Of a stretch of DNA of 35,096 bases, positions 6,877 to 27,911 are shown piece by piece. Positions within the stretch are counted from its first letter, which is position 1; the number at the start of each line of letters is the position of its first letter. Location of the stretch: positions 1 through 35,096 of the forward strand of contig JAFUVB010000097.1 in assembly GCA_017471245.1 (NCBI GenBank). Reading direction: 5' to 3'. Source of the stretch: Prevotella sp. Lineage in GTDB: Bacteria; Bacteroidota; Bacteroidia; Bacteroidales; Bacteroidaceae. The translations under genes were made by a program, and so were the position numbers. Under the pieces are notes generated by a model. The model worked only from the letters and a program-made list of their open reading frames with translations. It searched no databases and was not told the DNA's origin.

Positions 6877-7731
6877 TTATTCCTCTGGAGCCTGGTCGAT
6901 CAAATCCATGAACTGGTCGAGCTTCGGCGTAATGATGATCTGCGTGCGACGGTTGCGCTGCTTGCCCACTTCGGTGTTGTTGCTTGCCAACGGGTTATAT
7001 TCGCCGCGGCCTCCAGCGGTGAGTCGCTTAGGATCAACGCCGTAGTTGTTCTGCAGATACTGCACTACGCTGCTGGCACGCAGGCATGAAAGATCCCAGT
7101 TGTTGCGGATGTTCTCGCGCGAAATAGGCACATTGTCGGTGTTTCCTTCCACCAGCACGTCATAATCCTTATAGTCCATGATGATCTTTGCTATCTTCGA
7201 GAGGGTCTCGGCAGCACGGTCGTTGATCTCGTAAGAGCCTGTCTGATAGAGCATATTGTCAGCCAGCGAGATGTAAACCACGCCCTTGAGCACCTGCACA
7301 TCCACCTCTTTGAGTTCTTCCTTGCTCAAAGAACGGGTCAGGTTGTTGGTGAGCACCATGTTCAGCGAGTCGCTCTTCGACTTCAGTTCGGTGAGATGGC
7401 GGATGTATTGGTTGCTCTCGTTGATCTGATCCACAAGCTTTTCAATGCTCACGTTGTTCTGGTTTGCATTGTTAAGACTCTTGTCGAGCGAGCGCTGCAA
7501 TGCGGTATAAGCCTTCTTTTGCTGTGCCAGCTGCTCCTCAAGCGATGTTACGCGCGCATTGGCTGCTGCCAGCTGCTCCTTTGCCACCTGATAGTTGGTG
7601 TTCAGTTCCTTATTCTCATTTTGCAGACTTTGGTTGTCAAGGCGACAGTTGTCCAAGTCTTTCTTCAGCGCACAGCTGCTCATGAGCATTGCTCCGGCAG
7701 CCACGGTGACCATTAAAACCGTTTTCTTCAT
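6877..7731 (-). CDS. OmpA/MotB-domain lipoprotein with coiled coil
   Basis: 284 aa from ATG at 7731, chosen because AAAGG lies 10 nt upstream; an in-frame ATG at 7749 has no such site. The lipoprotein signal MKKTVLMVTVAAGAMLMSSC gives a lipidated Cys20. Residues ~25-110 form a heptad-rich coiled coil (NQSLQNENKELNTNYQ, VTSLEEQLAQQKKAY). The C-terminal ~130 residues are an OmpA-like peptidoglycan-binding domain: VLVEGNTDNVPIS, LSCLRASSVVQYL, RLTAGGRGEYNPLASN, QRNRRTQIIITP. Such proteins tether the outer membrane to peptidoglycan across the periplasm. It is convergent with the lysozyme gene, which acts on the same polymer, though nothing shows joint regulation. Confidence 0.9.
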   Translation of the reverse strand: MKKTVLMVTVAAGAMLMSSCALKKDLDNCRLDNQSLQNENKELNTNYQVAKEQLAAANARVTSLEEQLAQQKKAYTALQRSLDKSLNNANQNNVSIEKLVDQINESNQYIRHLTELKSKSDSLNMVLTNNLTRSLSKEELKEVDVQVLKGVVYISLADNMLYQTGSYEINDRAAETLSKIAKIIMDYKDYDVLVEGNTDNVPISRENIRNNWDLSCLRASSVVQYLQNNYGVDPKRLTAGGRGEYNPLASNNTEVGKQRNRRTQIIITPKLDQFMDLIDQAPEE

Positions 7732-7993
7732 TTTCTTATTACCTTTCATTCTTTAGTTAATACTCAAGTTATTTGGCGGAAACGAAGCCTGCACGGCAAC
7801 GAATCCGCCTGCAATTATAACGCAAAATCACGAATTAGACCGCAAAAAACCGGCAAAGTTGCAAATGTTTATGGAATTTTAACCACCCCGTCTTCGTGCT
7901 TATCTTATGTTAACATGCCGATGCCACGGTCTTCGTTCCGAACAACATCGGCAGAAAATCTGTGTGAAAGTCGCTGCTTTGAGAATTTTTTGC

Positions 7994-8001
7994 TATCTTT
8001 G
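7994..8001 (+). promoter_or_regulatory. Bacteroidota -7 box (TATCTTTG) for the M1 peptidase
   Basis: TATCTTTG lies 24 nt before the ATG at 8026. No TTTG at the normal distance; one at 7978-7981 is only 12 nt away. It excludes the upstream in-frame start at 7915. Confidence 0.5.
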
Positions 8002-8025
8002 CACCAACTAACCAAAGATGGAATC

Positions 8026-10362
8026 ATGAACACGAAACAAATCTGCATGTTGATAACAGTCTGGCTGTGGGTGCTTTCCGCAGCGGCACAGGTGGAAGTG
8101 GAAGACGGAGTAAGCCAGAAACTGGCGCAATATAGGGCGGAACATGTGAGCAACGTGGGCTATCAGCTGACGTTCAACATACCTGAACAGAGGGAGCAAA
8201 GCGTAGGTTTCTGCGAAGTGATCACCTTCAGCTACAACGGAAAAGAGGCGCTGCAGATCGACTTTCAGGGCGAAGTGGCGAGCTGCAAGGTGAACAAACG
8301 GCAACTGAAAGCCGTGGACTATCGCGACGAGCACATCATCATCCCGAAGAAATACCTGCGCAAAGGCACCAACAGTGTGGAGATAACGGGCAGCAGCCTC
8401 GACAAAGCACTGAACCGACAGCACGACTATCTCTACACGCTCTTTGTGCCTGACCATGCGCGGAGCGTGTTCCCATGCTTCGACCAGCCCGATGTGAAGG
8501 CGCGATACATGCTGAAACTGTCGGTGCCTGAACACTGGGAAGCCATCAGCAACGGCGCCTGCCGGCAGCAATCATCAGCAAATACCTATCAGTTTGCTGA
8601 AACCGAGCCGCTGCCCACCTATCTCTTCTCGTTCACGGCGGGCAAGTTCCACAAACAGACTGCCGTGCGCGACGGGCGCCAGATGACCGCCCTCTACCGC
8701 GAAACCGACCCCAAGAAGGTGGCACAGCTGCAGATTGTGTTCGACGAGATTGCCCTCTCGCTGCGCTGGTTGGAAGAATACACGGGCATCCCCTACCCTT
8801 TCTCCAAGTATGATTTTGCCATCCTGCCCGGCTATCAGTTCGGAGGCATGGAGCATCCGGGATGCATCCAATACCGCGACCGCACGCTCTTCCTCGGAGA
8901 AAACCCCACGCCCGACGAGGAACTCAGCCGCTTGCAGCTGCTGGCTCACGAAACATCGCACATGTGGTTCGGCGATCTGGTCACCATGCGCTGGTTCAAC
9001 GACGTGTGGACAAAGGAGGTATTCGCCAACTTCATGGCCGACAAGATAGGGCGCGAACAGTTTCCCGACATCAACCACGACCTGAGTTTCATCAAGTCGC
9101 ACTATATTCCCGCCCTCGCCACCGACCGCACCGAAGGCACGCACCCTATACAACAACCGTTAGATAACCTGAAAAATGCCGGACTGCTCTACGGAAACAT
9201 CATCTATCACAAGGCTCCCATCATGATGCGCAAGCTGGAAGAGCAGATGGGAGATGCACCTTTCCGCCGCGGACTGCAGCAATACCTGCGCCGGTTCTCC
9301 TACGGCAATGCCACGTGGGACGACCTCATTGCCATCCTCGACAATGAGAATCCGCAGGCAGGCATCAAGGAGTTCGACCGCCAATGGGTGAAATCGAAGG
9401 GCGTGAACATCATTGACGCGGATGCTTCCGACGGCAAACCGCTGCCCAACACCGACGGTATGGGCTATGCCCGATATCGGTTTGCCGACAGCAATGCTGT
9501 TACTCAGTATGTAAATCGGTGGGACGAATTGTCGACGGAACAGAGCCGCATGGCAGCCGCCATGATACTCTACGAGAACTATCTGATGCACAAGGCTCCC
9601 GCCGACCTTACGTTCACGGGCGTGTGGATGCTCGCCGCCTCGGAAGGAAACGAGCTTACACTGTCGGTATGCGCCAACATCCTGAGCCACGTGATGCGCC
9701 ATTTGCCCTCTAATCAGCGGCAAGAGATGGAGAAAATACTATGGAAAACCATGCAGGAGCACCCCGTCAGGTCGTTCCGCCAGCAGTTGCTGCGCACGCT
9801 CTGCACCAATGCCACCACGCCGGAACTCGTCGACAGCATTCAAAACATCTGGGAACAGGCATCCAACCCGCTGCTCACCGAGCGCAACTACATCAACACC
9901 GCCTACCATCTCGCCATGATGCGCCCCGCCCGTTGGCTGGAAATCATCGCCAAGCAGCGCGCCCGCCTCAAGAACGAGGATGTGATTCGCGAGTTTGATT
10001 TCGTGAGCCGGGCATGCAACCCCGACGCTGATGTGCAAAAACAATTGTTCGAATCGCTGCTGAAAAAGGAGAACCGTGCCATCGAACCATACGCCGCCAA
10101 CATGCTCTCACTGCTGAACAGCTCTCTGAGAGAGCCGCATAACAACCGCTTCATCACCCCCGGACTGGAAGTTTTAGAGGAAGTGCAGCGCACAGGCGAC
10201 ATATTCTTCCCCCTCGACTGGTGCAATGCCCTGCTCTCAGGTCATCGCTCAGCCGAAGCCCGACAGATGGTGCAGCAGTTCATCAACGCTCATCCCGACT
10301 ATCCGGAACCGCTCCGCAACAAGCTCCTTCAGGCTGCATTCATGTTGCTCAACGGGGAGTAG
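8026..10362 (+). CDS. M1 family zinc aminopeptidase, secreted
   Basis: 778 aa from ATG at 8026, which places a classical signal peptide (about residues 1-22, LITVWLWVLSAAAQ) at the N-terminus. The zinc site is intact: His308-Glu309-Thr-Ser-His312 and the third ligand Glu331 in NDVWTKEVFANF. The exopeptidase motif, usually GAMEN, reads GGMEH (273-277), a variant with Gly for Ala and His for Asn. The N-terminal saddle domain and C-terminal helical ERAP1-like region are present, so length is normal. It would remove N-terminal residues from peptides in the periplasm. Single-gene unit. Confidence 0.92.
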   Translation: MNTKQICMLITVWLWVLSAAAQVEVEDGVSQKLAQYRAEHVSNVGYQLTFNIPEQREQSVGFCEVITFSYNGKEALQIDFQGEVASCKVNKRQLKAVDYRDEHIIIPKKYLRKGTNSVEITGSSLDKALNRQHDYLYTLFVPDHARSVFPCFDQPDVKARYMLKLSVPEHWEAISNGACRQQSSANTYQFAETEPLPTYLFSFTAGKFHKQTAVRDGRQMTALYRETDPKKVAQLQIVFDEIALSLRWLEEYTGIPYPFSKYDFAILPGYQFGGMEHPGCIQYRDRTLFLGENPTPDEELSRLQLLAHETSHMWFGDLVTMRWFNDVWTKEVFANFMADKIGREQFPDINHDLSFIKSHYIPALATDRTEGTHPIQQPLDNLKNAGLLYGNIIYHKAPIMMRKLEEQMGDAPFRRGLQQYLRRFSYGNATWDDLIAILDNENPQAGIKEFDRQWVKSKGVNIIDADASDGKPLPNTDGMGYARYRFADSNAVTQYVNRWDELSTEQSRMAAAMILYENYLMHKAPADLTFTGVWMLAASEGNELTLSVCANILSHVMRHLPSNQRQEMEKILWKTMQEHPVRSFRQQLLRTLCTNATTPELVDSIQNIWEQASNPLLTERNYINTAYHLAMMRPARWLEIIAKQRARLKNEDVIREFDFVSRACNPDADVQKQLFESLLKKENRAIEPYAANMLSLLNSSLREPHNNRFITPGLEVLEEVQRTGDIFFPLDWCNALLSGHRSAEARQMVQQFINAHPDYPEPLRNKLLQAAFMLLNGE

Positions 10363-10801: not shown

Positions 10802-12250
10802 ATGCTTTTCAATTCTTTTGAGTTCATGTTATTCCTTCCTATCGTATTCCTTCTCTATTGGAAGGTGTTCAAGAAACTGTCTCAGCAGAACCTGCTCATC
10901 GTAGTAGCAAGCTACATTTTCTACGGATGGTGGAACTGGCGATTTCTGTTTCTCATCTTGATAACCACCCTATTCAGTTATGGAAGCGGACTGGCAATAG
11001 AGCATTTTCAGGGTGACCGCCATCGGCAGAAGATGGTCAGCATCGGCAATATTATTCTTAACGTAGGGATTTTGGGCATCTTCAAATATTACAATTTCTT
11101 TGTCGAGAGCCTCCAAGAATTGCTGTCGTTAACAGGAATACACCTTGACTGGCCCACGATGAACATCATTTTGCCGGTAGGCATCAGTTTCTACACGTTT
11201 CAGGCTCTTAGCTATTCTATCGACGTTTATCGTGGAAAGATTCAGGCAACCCATGACCTTGTGGCATTTTTCGCCTTTATCAGCTTTTTCCCACAGTTGG
11301 TGGCTGGTCCGATAGAGCGCGCAACGAACTTGCTTCCTCAGTTTATCAAACCACGGATGTTCGACTATGATACAGCCGTAGACGGATGCCGGCAGATACT
11401 GTGGGGATTTTTCAAGAAATGCCTGATAGCAGACGTATGCGCCATGTCGCTGAATAACATCTGGATGGATTATCAGCACCAGAGCGGGCTGGTGCTTCTG
11501 AACGGTGCCATCCTGTTCACTTTTCAGATTTACGGTGACTTTTCGGGCTACTCCGACATTGCTATCGGCACGGCTAAATTATTTGGAATCCGGTTGCTCA
11601 ACAACTTCAACTATCCTTATTTCTCGCGCAGCATTCCCGAATTCTGGCGGCGATGGCACATCTCGCTGATGACATGGTTTCGCGATTACATCTATTTTCC
11701 ATTAGGAGGAAGCCGTTGTCCGAAATGGAAAACCATCCGCAACACGTTCATCGTGTTTGGAATAAGCGGTATATGGCATGGAGCCAATTGGACTTTTGTG
11801 AGCTGGGGGCTGTATCATGCGTACATTCTGTCGGCGTTCATCTACTTCGGTATCCATACAAAGCACGACCATCCCGCGGCATACGGTCATCTGCTTCCCA
11901 ACCGAAAAGAAGCTACGCAAATGCTTTACACCTTCATCCTCGTCGCCATCGGGTGGATTATATTCCGAGCCGAATCCCTCCCACAGGCATGGGACTATAT
12001 CAGTCGGATATTCACAGCCTTCACAGATGCTGGTCCCAAAATCTCTTATCAGAAACGCCCATACTTGTTTATCTTTGTCATGCTGGTCATAGAGTGGCTG
12101 CAACGCACACGCCCCCACGGTCTATACATGCCTGCTGACAGCTCGATCTTTTCGAAACAACCAGTCAGATGGTGCCTTTACATCGTAATGATCCTAACCA
12201 TTATGCTCTTCAAAGGTGCACAAGGAGAGTTTATTTATTTCCAATTCTAA
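10802..12250 (+). CDS. MBOAT family O-acyltransferase (AlgI-like)
   Basis: 482 aa polytopic membrane protein. It starts with MLFNSFEFMLFLPIVFLLYW, characteristic of the AlgI/DltB/PatA branch. Landmarks are PVGISFYTFQALSYSIDVYRG, QLVAGPIERA, FWRRWHISLMTWFRDYIYFPLGG (His286) and SGIWHGANWTF with the invariant His326. These proteins move acetyl (or other acyl) groups across the inner membrane onto extracytoplasmic polysaccharides. It is followed after 24 nt by an SGNH-like protein that is probably its partner. No polysaccharide synthesis genes are adjacent, so the acceptor is unknown; peptidoglycan or a capsule made elsewhere are both possible. Confidence 0.92.
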   Translation: MLFNSFEFMLFLPIVFLLYWKVFKKLSQQNLLIVVASYIFYGWWNWRFLFLILITTLFSYGSGLAIEHFQGDRHRQKMVSIGNIILNVGILGIFKYYNFFVESLQELLSLTGIHLDWPTMNIILPVGISFYTFQALSYSIDVYRGKIQATHDLVAFFAFISFFPQLVAGPIERATNLLPQFIKPRMFDYDTAVDGCRQILWGFFKKCLIADVCAMSLNNIWMDYQHQSGLVLLNGAILFTFQIYGDFSGYSDIAIGTAKLFGIRLLNNFNYPYFSRSIPEFWRRWHISLMTWFRDYIYFPLGGSRCPKWKTIRNTFIVFGISGIWHGANWTFVSWGLYHAYILSAFIYFGIHTKHDHPAAYGHLLPNRKEATQMLYTFILVAIGWIIFRAESLPQAWDYISRIFTAFTDAGPKISYQKRPYLFIFVMLVIEWLQRTRPHGLYMPADSSIFSKQPVRWCLYIVMILTIMLFKGAQGEFIYFQF

Positions 12251-12274
12251 TCAACCAAAAACCGACAAAGGAAT

Positions 12275-13234
12275 ATGAAACAGTTCATTCAGAAAACAAC
12301 ACTGCTCTTCTGCATCATCGCTGGCATTGTCGCAGCACTGATTATACTGCCGCCACGGAACCAAGAAAGCGGATATATCGAATACATGAAGAAAATCGGA
12401 ATGGTGATGAACACGCCCTCAAAGCGAGTCATCTTTGTAAGCGGCAGCAGCCTTAACACGGCTCTCGACTCGCAAATGATGGAAGATTCACTGCACATCA
12501 ACGTTGTGAACTATGGTCTGAACGCTGGTATCGGTCTAAAATTCTGGCTCGATGACGTGACTCCCTATGTGCGAAAAGGCGATATCGTGGTAGTTGCTCC
12601 CGAATATCCGCAATTCTTCAACGATGTAATGTATGGCAATCCCGAAACGCTCGGCCCGCTGATGTACTACTCAAACATGCGGAACATCACGAAAATGAAC
12701 CTTAAACAACTGCTCAATGTGATAAAAGGCATCCCTTCCATCATCAATTCGAATGTAATCGGAGCCATCGGAAAGAAGCGGCAAGCACCACAGAAGCATT
12801 CAGGAGCGAACCCATCAGAATTTAAATCCGAAAGAACGCCATCCCCACTCCCGCCCCACCAAGCAGAAAACAACTTCAAGCCAACATGGGAATATAAGAG
12901 ACCGCTTGTGGTTGATGAAGATTTCGGGAACTATTTCGTCCAGAAAATCAACGAAATGAAAGCCCAAGGTGCCACAGTCTTGATTGTTCCTTCCGTAATC
13001 CGCGCCACTGCTTTTGCCCGCGAACGTATCAATGCATACGCCATTGATGCCTTTCTCCGGAAGCACGGTCTTGCATATCACTCTAAGCCTGAGCTGCATG
13101 TCGTTCCCGATGAGGATGCATCGGATACCGATTACCACACAAACTATTATGGTAGAATTAGAAACACCCAAGTGCTCATCAACGAAATTCGACCCTACAT
13201 CTGCCGAATCACTTGTTGTGCGGGCAGCTTTTAA
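12275..13234 (+). CDS. SGNH-hydrolase-like membrane-anchored partner of MBOAT
   Basis: 319 aa with one N-terminal membrane anchor (residues ~8-26). A nucleophile-type motif FVSGSSLNTALDS places Ser58/Ser59 after a beta-strand, and near the C-terminus TDYHTNYYGR gives Asp286-Tyr-His288, the usual SGNH catalytic pair. The order and spacing resemble AlgJ/AlgX and DltD-type partners that complete acyl transfer in the periplasm. A Pro/Lys/Ser-rich stretch near residues 168-205 looks like a flexible insert. The C-terminus ends ICRITCCAGSF. Co-transcription with the MBOAT gene is likely from the 24-nt gap. Function is inferred from motif and context; overall similarity to named families could not be checked. 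Confidence 0.75.
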   Translation: MKQFIQKTTLLFCIIAGIVAALIILPPRNQESGYIEYMKKIGMVMNTPSKRVIFVSGSSLNTALDSQMMEDSLHINVVNYGLNAGIGLKFWLDDVTPYVRKGDIVVVAPEYPQFFNDVMYGNPETLGPLMYYSNMRNITKMNLKQLLNVIKGIPSIINSNVIGAIGKKRQAPQKHSGANPSEFKSERTPSPLPPHQAENNFKPTWEYKRPLVVDEDFGNYFVQKINEMKAQGATVLIVPSVIRATAFARERINAYAIDAFLRKHGLAYHSKPELHVVPDEDASDTDYHTNYYGRIRNTQVLINEIRPYICRITCCAGSF

Positions 13235-26397: not shown

Positions 26398-26491
26398 AGC
26401 ATTGCTATTCAGCATACATGGCATGTGATTGCCATCAGGGCGCGTTAATAATTTGTAAAAAACACAAAAAGGTTTAGACGCTTTGTCAGGG

Positions 26492-26559
26492 CATAAAACC
26501 TTGGCATTGGAAAAACCGGAAATTTGCTTTTTCGGTTTTTCCAATGCCAAGGTTTTATG
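26492..26559. repeat. 27-bp perfect inverted repeat in a divergent intergenic region
   Basis: Arms 26492-26518 and 26533-26559 are perfectly complementary, each built around AAAACCTTGGCATTGGAAAA, with a 14-nt loop. It lies between two divergent genes, so it is not placed as a terminator for either. The intergenic region 26205-26674 holds this, copy B repeats, the operator candidate and two promoters, but no gene. Confidence 0.8.
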
Positions 26560-26596
26560 AGGCTATTCTGAGGTTTTATGAGGTTAAGAACCAACC

Positions 26597-26628
26597 TATG
26601 GTTAGTCCAGAAATTATCGCTAACTTTG
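26597..26628 (+). promoter_or_regulatory. Bacteroidota promoter for the UDG-like/FtsZ-C-like gene
   Basis: TATG (26597-26600, one mismatch to TTTG), 20 nt, TAACTTTG (26621-26628). The ATG at 26675 follows 46 nt later. Confidence 0.6.
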
Positions 26629-26674: not shown

Positions 26675-27700
26675 ATGAAAACAACGAAATCATTTTTTAA
26701 TCCCTTTATAGGGAAAGATTTTGAAGAACATCGGGTTATGATACTCGGTGAGGCACATGTTTGTGGAGAATGTTCATGCGAAGAATGCATGAAACACAAA
26801 GACTCATTGTGTCAAAATGGGCATGTTGCGATAGTTAAGGAGCACATTGCAACAGGTTGCGTGAAAACATACAGGAATCTTGAGAAAGAGTTCCTTGGAG
26901 AAGCAATCAATGATAAATCAGAAAGAGAGCGCTTCTGGAACCGTTTCTTGTTCACAAATCTGCTTCCGATAGCCATGCCGCGTGGCGGACAGGCTCCAGA
27001 AGAGAAATACTATACTGATGATTGCCGGGAACGGTTCCTCAACCTCATCAAGACTTATCATCCAAAGTATCTGATTGTTCTGGGAGAAAGGACCTTCAAT
27101 CATCTATCTGGGGATGAGAGCGACATGTGGCAAAAAGAGAAAGTAGAAACATGCGACGACAAATTCAACATTTGGACTTTGAACTACGAGCAACAACAAG
27201 TACGTGTGCTTCAGATCTATCATCCGGCATGGAGGGGGCTGAGTAATGAGCATTCAACCGCCATGATGAAGAGAATCAGATACTTTTTAGATGACACGTC
27301 CCTGCAACAGTTAGATAAAGCCAACAGGAGCGCATTACTGAAAGAGTTCGTAAATGAAAATGCGATCGTAAAATTGACCGAAAAAGAAGTGAATGATTTC
27401 TTTCAATGTGAAGGGCATCTTATTGTAGTAAGAGGCTGTGCGGACAAGATGAAGGAGGCTCTGGAGCAAGCGAAGAACGATAAGCAACTTCAAGGCTACG
27501 ACCTGAAGCAGGCTAAGGGCATGCTCGTTAATATTAGCCTAATTTCTCCTTACAATATAGATTGCATGGAAGCCATGGATCTGCTCAATACATTTTTCAA
27601 CAACTTCGATAGCGACGATTGTAAAATTCTATGGAGCCTGATTCAGAAAGAAGAACAAAACAATAAATTTAAGATTACAATATGCTTTATATTTCCATGA
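26675..27700 (+). CDS. UDG-like domain fused to FtsZ C-terminal-like domain
   Basis: 341 aa. Residues ~8-210 look like the uracil-DNA glycosylase superfamily: VMILGEAH (21-28), RFLFTNLLPIA (90-100), YLIVLGERTFNHL and YHPAWRG (182-188). A cysteine cluster, Cys30, 33, 35, 38 and 46, sits right after the first motif. Residues ~246-341 read like the FtsZ C-terminal domain: KMKEALEQAKNDKQLQGYDL, KGMLVNISLISPYNID, KILWSLIQKEEQNNKFKITI, matching the FtsZ order 'A..AI.SPLL..I.GA.GVLVNIT...I.G...D......VTV.ATG'. There is no GTPase half. The base composition is more AT-rich than its neighbours, suggesting transfer. The stop overlaps the start of a small gene (ATGA). Both domain calls are by eye; the catalytic state and role are unknown. 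Confidence 0.7.
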   Translation: MKTTKSFFNPFIGKDFEEHRVMILGEAHVCGECSCEECMKHKDSLCQNGHVAIVKEHIATGCVKTYRNLEKEFLGEAINDKSERERFWNRFLFTNLLPIAMPRGGQAPEEKYYTDDCRERFLNLIKTYHPKYLIVLGERTFNHLSGDESDMWQKEKVETCDDKFNIWTLNYEQQQVRVLQIYHPAWRGLSNEHSTAMMKRIRYFLDDTSLQQLDKANRSALLKEFVNENAIVKLTEKEVNDFFQCEGHLIVVRGCADKMKEALEQAKNDKQLQGYDLKQAKGMLVNISLISPYNIDCMEAMDLLNTFFNNFDSDDCKILWSLIQKEEQNNKFKITICFIFP

Positions 27701-27888
27701 ATAGCGAATATGCTATACGTATACAAGCGCTTCTCTCCGAGTGCGGAAGCTTGATAGGCGGAGACAGGCTTGCTGGCTTTTGTCTTTGTTGCGCAATTAC
27801 TGCGTGCGAAATAGGAATAATCAATATTGCCATCAGAGTTGTCAAGAAGTTAATAAATAACAGAAAACAAGAGGGAGAAGCGCAATGA
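27697..27888 (+). CDS. 63-aa hydrophobic protein, translationally coupled
   Basis: ATG at 27697 overlaps the TGA of the preceding gene as ATGA; an in-frame start at 27682 is less likely. The product MNSEYAIRIQALLSECGSL has a hydrophobic Cys-rich middle (LAGFCLCCAITACEIGIINIAI), then a basic/polar tail (RVVKKLINNRKQEGEAQ), so it may be a single-span small membrane protein or amphipathic partner. Coupling suggests fixed stoichiometry with the fused UDG-like/FtsZ-C-like protein. No known family recognised. Its last codons form the left arm of the terminator hairpin at 27871-27898. Confidence 0.6.
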   Translation: MNSEYAIRIQALLSECGSLIGGDRLAGFCLCCAITACEIGIINIAIRVVKKLINNRKQEGEAQ

Positions 27889-27898
27889 CTTCTCCCTC
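27871..27898 (-). terminator. Terminator of the second LRR gene, overlapping the small ORF
   Basis: Perfect 10-bp stem GAGGGAGAAG (27871-27880) with CTTCTCCCTC (27889-27898), 8-nt loop. Read on the minus strand it is followed by TTGTTTTCTGTTATTTATT, so it terminates the LRR gene ending at 27912. On the plus strand it has no U-tract but may still slow readthrough. Confidence 0.75.
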
Positions 27899-27911
27899 CT
27901 GTTAGAAAGGG

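Follow-up and report, generated by a model that had tools for sequence, protein, structure and literature searches.

A Prevotella gene was found to encode a two-domain protein in which a domain of predicted UDG fold is followed by a C-terminal half of FtsZ that has no GTPase domain and has lost the characteristic residues of the synergy loop. Orphan FtsZ C-terminal domains (FtsZ_C) recur in defence-type islands of other genomes, beside truncated or duplicated versions of other host proteins. Here, we tentatively propose that this protein acts in defence, with the FtsZ piece serving as a decoy for phage inhibitors of FtsZ and controlling a Brig-like glycosylase. The window, that is, the whole stretch of DNA analyzed, comprises 35,096 nt of Prevotella sp. 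contig JAFUVB010000097.1 (assembly GCA_017471245.1), and its features around the gene are as follows.

26492..26559, no strand assigned: strong inverted repeat, terminator-like, upstream of the fusion gene
26621..26628, forward strand: TAACTTTG, candidate for what we take to be the Bacteroidota-type −7 box; not above chance across the window as a whole
26675..27700, forward strand: gene for the 341-aa UDG-like/FtsZ_C fusion protein (P0001)
26675..27310, forward strand: UDG-superfamily domain, aa 1–212, with LGEAH (aa 24–28), FTN (aa 93–95), and HPA (aa 183–185)
26762..26812, forward strand: five-cysteine cluster, aa 30–46, read from the sequence, inside the UDG part
27311..27697, forward strand: orphan FtsZ C-terminal domain, aa 213–341, without a GTPase domain
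27365..27391, forward strand: equivalent of the synergy (T7) loop, IVKLTEKEV, aa 231–239, in which the FtsZ Asn, Asp, and Asp are Lys, Thr, and Glu
27697..27888, forward strand: 63-aa hydrophobic ORF, overlapping the fusion stop as ATGA (27697–27700)
27866..27903, no strand assigned: stem-loop where the small ORF ends, resembling a terminator for the convergent gene

An earlier note, made from the letters of the window, had described a UDG-like domain joined to an orphan FtsZ_C without a GTPase domain, a stop codon overlapping the start of a small hydrophobic ORF, and an AT-rich unit. Both domain calls were right, as judged by profile, fold, and FtsZ homology; aa 1–212 are UDG-like and gave no match to the tubulin/FtsZ GTPase, and the ATGA overlap is present at the positions given above. 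The GC content of the fusion-gene stretch is 0.39–0.42, compared with 0.50–0.54 for most of the 3 kb upstream, and a value of 0.40 is also found at 28.5–30 kb of the window. In the ORF reading of the window, the fusion frame is intact over 341 codons. The nearest large genes all lie on the opposite strand and encode GH97, pullulanase-like, and GH77 proteins for starch use, an LRR protein, and a DUF4143 ATPase; the starch-use genes flank the fusion gene on one side and the LRR protein on the other, with no defence island. The upstream inverted repeat is long and nearly perfect (RNA of 26485–26580, −52.3 kcal/mol, z −12.2), and it is single-copy in the genome except for one 22-bp partial match.

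The tail of the protein, from about aa 213, aligns with a stretch of FtsZ that begins shortly ahead of the synergy loop and extends almost through the globular C-terminal domain. Alone, it scored 20.9 bits with PF12327 (E 4.4e-4), which is below the curated cut-off of 27, and it matched the FtsZ of its own genome at E 2.1e-4. Among PDB sequences, 10 distinct ones matched at E ≤ 10, and eight of these were FtsZ (best E 0.011). A profile of FtsZ only (23 rows, which had been aligned jointly with the orphan tails) gave 43.3 bits, compared with 13.9 bits for the best of 5000 shuffles, and chance resemblance was rejected on this ground. The gene is not a full FtsZ or an FtsZ paralogue either; the two complete FtsZ genes of the genome lie elsewhere, on contigs C105 and C39 (L064:2654–4129 and L002:817–2223). 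A relative, G005, likewise has two complete FtsZ genes. The match of the tail to PHROG 19584 (E 1.9e-4) was set aside, as this profile has matches in 10 of 14 control genomes and fits another gene of the same genome far better. The AlphaFold2 model of the tail is poor (mean pLDDT 42.6, the only other row being part of one distant FtsZ), and the binding face is not visible in it; only the order of helices and strands is compatible with FtsZ. Residue numbers in the tail alignment follow a ruler row that we take to be E. coli FtsZ with its usual numbering. In this alignment, the tail covers all three FtsZ regions contacted by the T7 protein Gp0.4. Of 62 distinct FtsZ rows, 61, 62, and 62 keep the synergy-loop Asn, Asp, and Asp, respectively; the window tail has Lys, Thr, and Glu instead and retains 12 of the 34 FtsZ-invariant columns. 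The earlier suggestion that the tail could engage the division ring or other FtsZ-C-like proteins is compatible with the evidence, but the tail has lost these three loop residues of FtsZ.

Orphan FtsZ_C was detected in at least five other genomes of two genera (the counts are lower bounds, and the P0003 query did not list the orphan of G013). A search of 399 genomes of the family started from a 141-aa orphan, encoded on its own, that had first been noticed in G147. Besides FtsZ genes, the matches listed included near-identical orphans in G147, G1081, and G1167 and, at 53% identity, a copy in G161 that is part of a fusion; all four genomes belong to one genus (g24). The G161 fusion protein has 432 aa: its first 300 residues correspond to a truncated DnaE with Pfam DNA_pol3_alpha and finger matches, and FtsZ_C forms its C-terminal part. 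In the other three genomes, the FtsZ_C gene comes after a DnaE piece of 302–304 aa and, in its longest frame, overlaps this piece. The DnaE pieces are without the PHP region, and the PDIDVDF of housekeeping DnaE, which we take to be the catalytic motif, is RFQFDIE or KFQFDIE. A WYL regulator and a sigma-70 relative stand three genes or fewer before FtsZ_C in G161, G1081, and G1167; the island sigma-70 of G1167 is shortened to 189 aa, and a DUF6946 gene lies within this stretch in G161. All four g24 genomes have a second sigma-70 copy, which in G147 is at the end of another contig, and separate DnaE and FtsZ genes; a housekeeping-type sigma-70 (79% identical to the G161 island copy) is also present. 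In G161, G1081, and G1167, the copies of sigma-70, DnaE, and FtsZ outside the islands are of housekeeping type. The islands L160, L161, and L162 (G161, G1167, and G1081) contain the WYL regulator, an MBL-fold enzyme, the second or shortened sigma-70, DnaE pieces, and FtsZ_C; of these genes, the short contig L074 (G147) shows just two, the DnaE piece and FtsZ_C. A second DnaE piece of 162 aa is present in G161 (L160:2589–3077).

A class-level search of 242 genomes added the orphan of G013 (genus g13), the tail of a 282-aa protein that scored 24.0 bits with the FtsZ profile and matched the other orphans at E 9.7e-7. Its N-terminal part, of unknown family, gave no match to the UDG family. The gene lies in the following island.

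L216:7641–13910: WYL regulator, DnaE piece, MBL-fold enzyme, phosphoesterase, unknown domain fused to FtsZ_C, and small hydrophobic ORF

The WYL regulator and the MBL-fold enzyme of this island are 48% and 38% identical to their counterparts in G161, the phosphoesterase is calcineurin-like, and the DnaE piece has 177 aa. Five orphan rows, two of them near-identical, were compared at the synergy loop. The Asn is Lys or Arg in all five, and both Asp residues are retained in three (including the near-identical two); G013 has Lys, Ala, and Glu. A three-residue deletion is common to the window tail and three g24 rows (two near-identical) and occurs in none of the 62 FtsZ rows. In a tree, the window tail grouped with the three g24 rows at 98/94, with a long-branch warning printed. 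When G013, whose tail has no such deletion in this alignment, was added, it showed no firm grouping with the other orphans, and the orphans were not one clade (two changes; 19% of bootstrap trees united them); a single origin of all orphan tails is therefore not claimed. Two short frames were rejected as orphans because they look like cut FtsZ genes: the contig of the G348 frame ends just past the match, and the match in G475 starts 219 bases into its contig. Two candidate UDG-like neighbors in the islands were also dismissed. L161:9254–9910 matched UDG in Pfam only weakly (E 2.4e-4, under the cut-off), and neither it nor L160:407–1162 gave anything in profile comparison with the UDG family of the window.

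The UDG part (aa 1–220) matched PF03167 at 25.6 bits, above the curated cut-off of 24.3, and the full-length protein scored 24.1 bits, just below it. The α/β fold of UDG was predicted with high confidence across most of aa 11–200. Foldseek ranked MUG and TDG first, and the family-4 UDG from Sulfolobus tokodaii was among the top, tied matches in VIA-align. Gly25, His28, Asn95, His183, and Pro184 are retained. The UDG part belongs to a Bacteroidota family that is apparently mobile, of which 50 named loci were fetched by patterns over W[MK][NK]T[YF]xKF and [GR]YSW..W. An ORF matching the UDG profile is present in 48 of these loci and is near-full in 44, and the frame of L112 is split by a stop. 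Compared with 32 relatives (from 31 of the 50 loci, hand-chosen for near-full frames), the window protein differs at 16 of 31 near-invariant positions, and the divergent UDG part may for this reason be inactive as an enzyme. Five of the 31 columns (aa 62, 63, 65, 68, and 69) are conserved by construction because the patterns selected them, and P0001 retains one of the five. The five-cysteine cluster is a possible metal site; it is not found in all UDG relatives and is absent, for example, from rows L096 and L101.

Members of this family normally have no tail and are sometimes found beside WYL, Leo, or AbiE genes. Among 135 neighbor proteins, PADLOC models matched as WYL (11), LeoA (4), LeoBC (4), and AbiEi (4); these were taken from 143 proteins picked in 48 loci, without the longest proteins and the rows of L108, which resemble those of L106, and the figures come from the 25 most frequent families among 218 in PADLOC and 102 in Pfam, without a control set. 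Housekeeping families also occur among the neighbors. Two of the WYL regulators share 39% and 37% identity with the one in the G161 FtsZ_C island. Locus L067 contains two UDG-family genes (6953–8218 and 8979–9617) with a DUF1232 protein between them, and the first encodes a protein of 422 aa that begins with the UDG-like part and continues into a long C-terminal part of another kind. Two copies are also present in one locus of G005 (L066:7704–8453 and 11496–12314), where a neighboring ORF is presumably SIR2-like, as judged by eye.

The earlier note had proposed phage defence or a DNA-damage checkpoint. The evidence is compatible with the former, and the relatives, with their defence genes and orphan islands, strengthen the link; for a checkpoint, no positive evidence emerged. 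Gp0.4 of phage T7 contacts FtsZ at the synergy loop (residues 199–206) and at residues 262–270 and 292–303 and blocks polymerization, and its site is likened to those of SulA and MciZ; the Gp0.4–FtsZ complex is read out by a defence protein, CapRel-Ebc (excerpts of PMC13423816). Brig1 and Brig3 are UDG-superfamily phage-defence enzymes that excise modified phage bases (excerpts of PMC11078745 and of the preprint PMC13160076, respectively). What we infer in the window, namely, the decoy role, its trigger, a glycosylase activity, and a part for the small protein, would fit together as follows. The N-terminal domain would be the effector, which removes DNA bases, and the C-terminal domain would be a captured half of FtsZ that no longer functions as FtsZ but still presents the face bound by inhibitors, forming a built-in bait. 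Docking of a phage inhibitor on the tail would free or redirect the glycosylase, and abasic sites would arise in the DNA of the phage or the cell. The small hydrophobic protein may tether the complex to the membrane, or it may itself act as a further effector. The Lys or Arg in place of the synergy-loop Asn in all five orphans is as expected of a bait that is kept out of filaments, and the small hydrophobic ORF after the G013 fusion, which mirrors the arrangement in the window, also speaks for the model. Against it, we count that the fusion is a singleton, that no defence island surrounds it, that 16 of 31 UDG positions are changed, that the tail is poorly modelled (pLDDT 42.6), that the small proteins of the window and G013 show no similarity to each other, and that phage records, viral contigs, and genome contigs yielded no relative of the fusion (the two contig searches find close relatives only).

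Orphan FtsZ pieces beside gutted host proteins in defence-like islands may likewise be virus bait. Phages attack both DnaE-type and sigma-70-type proteins, and the DnaE piece and extra sigma-70 that accompany orphan FtsZ_C could extend the decoy idea to these targets. With more reserve than for the window protein itself, we suggest that Bacteroidales possess a class of immune genes made from gutted essential proteins (FtsZ without its GTPase, DnaE without its motif, and extra or shortened sigma-70). These genes would provide integrated decoys for the proteins by which phages take over the host; they would be wired into defence islands linked to WYL regulators, and the decoy in the window would be joined directly to a UDG-type glycosylase.

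Alternatively, the orphan domain could be dominant-negative, binding the exposed GTP face of FtsZ via the synergy loop, capping filaments, and stopping division, and the UDG part would damage DNA at the same time. This would make the unit a growth-arrest module of the abortive-infection or toxin–antitoxin kind, with the small membrane protein as a partner. The domain is indeed the half of FtsZ with which one subunit docks onto the next, both Asp residues are kept in three of the five orphan rows (two of them near-identical), and the second sigma-70 and DnaE piece of the g24 islands could act as dominant negatives in the same way. The altered synergy loop disfavors capping: the nearly invariant Asn, Asp, and Asp of FtsZ are gone from the window tail and from G013, and the window tail keeps only about a third of the invariant columns (12/34). 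We consider this reading unlikely. As far as the sequence goes, an FtsZ piece that is unable to hydrolyze GTP and has Lys or Arg for Asn would suit a bait better than a working cap.

The small ORF raises the possibility of a toxin–antitoxin pair, in which the hydrophobic protein would be the toxin and the UDG–FtsZ_C protein its regulator or antidote. The ATGA-coupled, two-gene layout with a small hydrophobic second protein agrees with this, and G013 repeats the gene order, with a 94-aa hydrophobic ORF (hydropathy 2.11) 9 bp downstream of its FtsZ_C fusion. The most hydrophobic 19-residue stretch of the window ORF has a mean hydropathy of 2.15, and an alternative in-frame ATG at 27682 would give a product of 68 aa instead of 63. 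BLASTP detected no similarity between the window and G013 small proteins, and the window ORF had no family match at the usual thresholds and no convincing relative in 151 genomes of the family (best other E 0.003). In the 48 UDG-family loci, no ORF of <100 aa with a mean hydropathy of ≥2 is listed directly downstream; hydrophobic ORFs lie directly upstream in a few (e.g., 97 aa in L105 and 102 aa in L117), and longer ones lie downstream in L090, L117, and L120. These points against a conserved pair make it distinctly improbable.

Another reading, which we find very doubtful, is that the tail only brings an ordinary glycosylase to the division ring, where it would survey septal DNA or DNA entering at the membrane. 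The predicted UDG fold, the homology of the tail to FtsZ, and the adjoining hydrophobic ORF are all in keeping with such targeting, but the synergy loop is altered, UDG relatives without a tail are the rule, and the G161 fusion joins FtsZ_C to a DnaE piece that lacks the catalytic motif and has no need of such a tag.

The UDG–FtsZ_C fusion was seen in one genome only, in one of 201 and one of 200 genomes in two sets that may overlap, and the three-part unit of UDG part, FtsZ_C, and small ORF was found only in the window. The earlier note had treated the unit as a single conserved module, and this did not hold: no ORF matching the orphan FtsZ_C profile was found in the 50 named UDG-family loci, and the longest tail among the 44 near-full frames was 20 aa. 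One of the outcomes that the note had named as refuting its reading, homologues with the UDG-like part alone, an unrelated tail, and no small ORF, is thereby partly borne out. The fusion had no match in phage records, and PADLOC gave none for the fusion or the small ORF. Searches that find close relatives only gave nothing for P0001 in the viral or genome contigs, and the UDG alignment and P0003 gave nothing in the viral contigs. Six plasmid records matched weakly, in the UDG part only (best E 3e-3), and a phage or plasmid origin of the fusion was set aside on these results. Two E. coli plasmids, of 2.1 kb (L032, NZ_CP070912.1) and 3.7 kb (L033, NZ_CP069652.1), each carry a weak UDG-family “hypothetical protein” as one of two and one of four annotated genes, respectively. 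A contig of the viral collection has an FtsZ-type gene (L176:1468–2589) 39% identical to FtsZ of the window genome, and this contig may be host DNA. A chance fusion or decaying gene without function, as the single occurrence, the 16 changed UDG positions, and the lack of convincing relatives of the small ORF might suggest, is the least probable reading, considering the intact 341-codon frame, the confidently predicted UDG fold over most of aa 11–200, and the recurrence of orphan FtsZ_C with other partners.

UDG-type phage defence and FtsZ-dependent sensing are each already known. In the literature searched, we found neither a UDG–FtsZ_C fusion nor orphan FtsZ_C that recurs together with a gutted DnaE and an additional sigma-70, and PMC12409349, returned by a search on decoys and host mimicry in bacterial immunity, does not contain the word FtsZ. 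Even without a bait role, a GTPase-less FtsZ half that recurs beside other gutted essential proteins was not found described there. Brig1 and Brig3 share the UDG-superfamily fold with the window protein, and relatives of both occur near defence genes; the best structural match of Brig1 is the same S. tokodaii family-4 UDG (PMC11078745). The likeness is one of fold and of the setting of the relatives. The neighbors differ, and the excerpts on Brig1 and Brig3 describe neither an FtsZ-derived tail nor a coupled small hydrophobic protein. FtsZ itself (PF12327) is homologous to the tail over the synergy-loop region and C-terminal domain, whereas the tail is without the GTPase domain, has the Lys/Thr/Glu loop and the three-residue deletion, and scores below the Pfam cut-off. 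The Mza defence system, whose mzaA is called a sigma factor in the excerpt of PMC9523054, also has a sigma-70 relative in a defence locus. In G161, the island sigma-70 is matched by the MzaA model of PADLOC, although any RpoD may match this model, and the window unit has no sigma factor. A similar idea is that of CapRel-Ebc, a defence protein that reads phage attack on FtsZ via the synergy-loop face (PMC13423816). CapRel uses the FtsZ of the cell and is a fused toxin–antitoxin, whereas the window protein has the FtsZ piece built in and a UDG effector fold; its Pfam matches are UDG and FtsZ_C, with no toxin–antitoxin family among them. If the tail is a bait, phage FtsZ inhibitors would be indicated as common triggers, and the question could be tested with one gene. 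Such a bait would also show directly that bacteria, like plants with their integrated decoys, incorporate parts of phage targets into proteins of immunity, and the wider class, if true, would comprise bacterial counterparts of the integrated decoys of plant NLRs.
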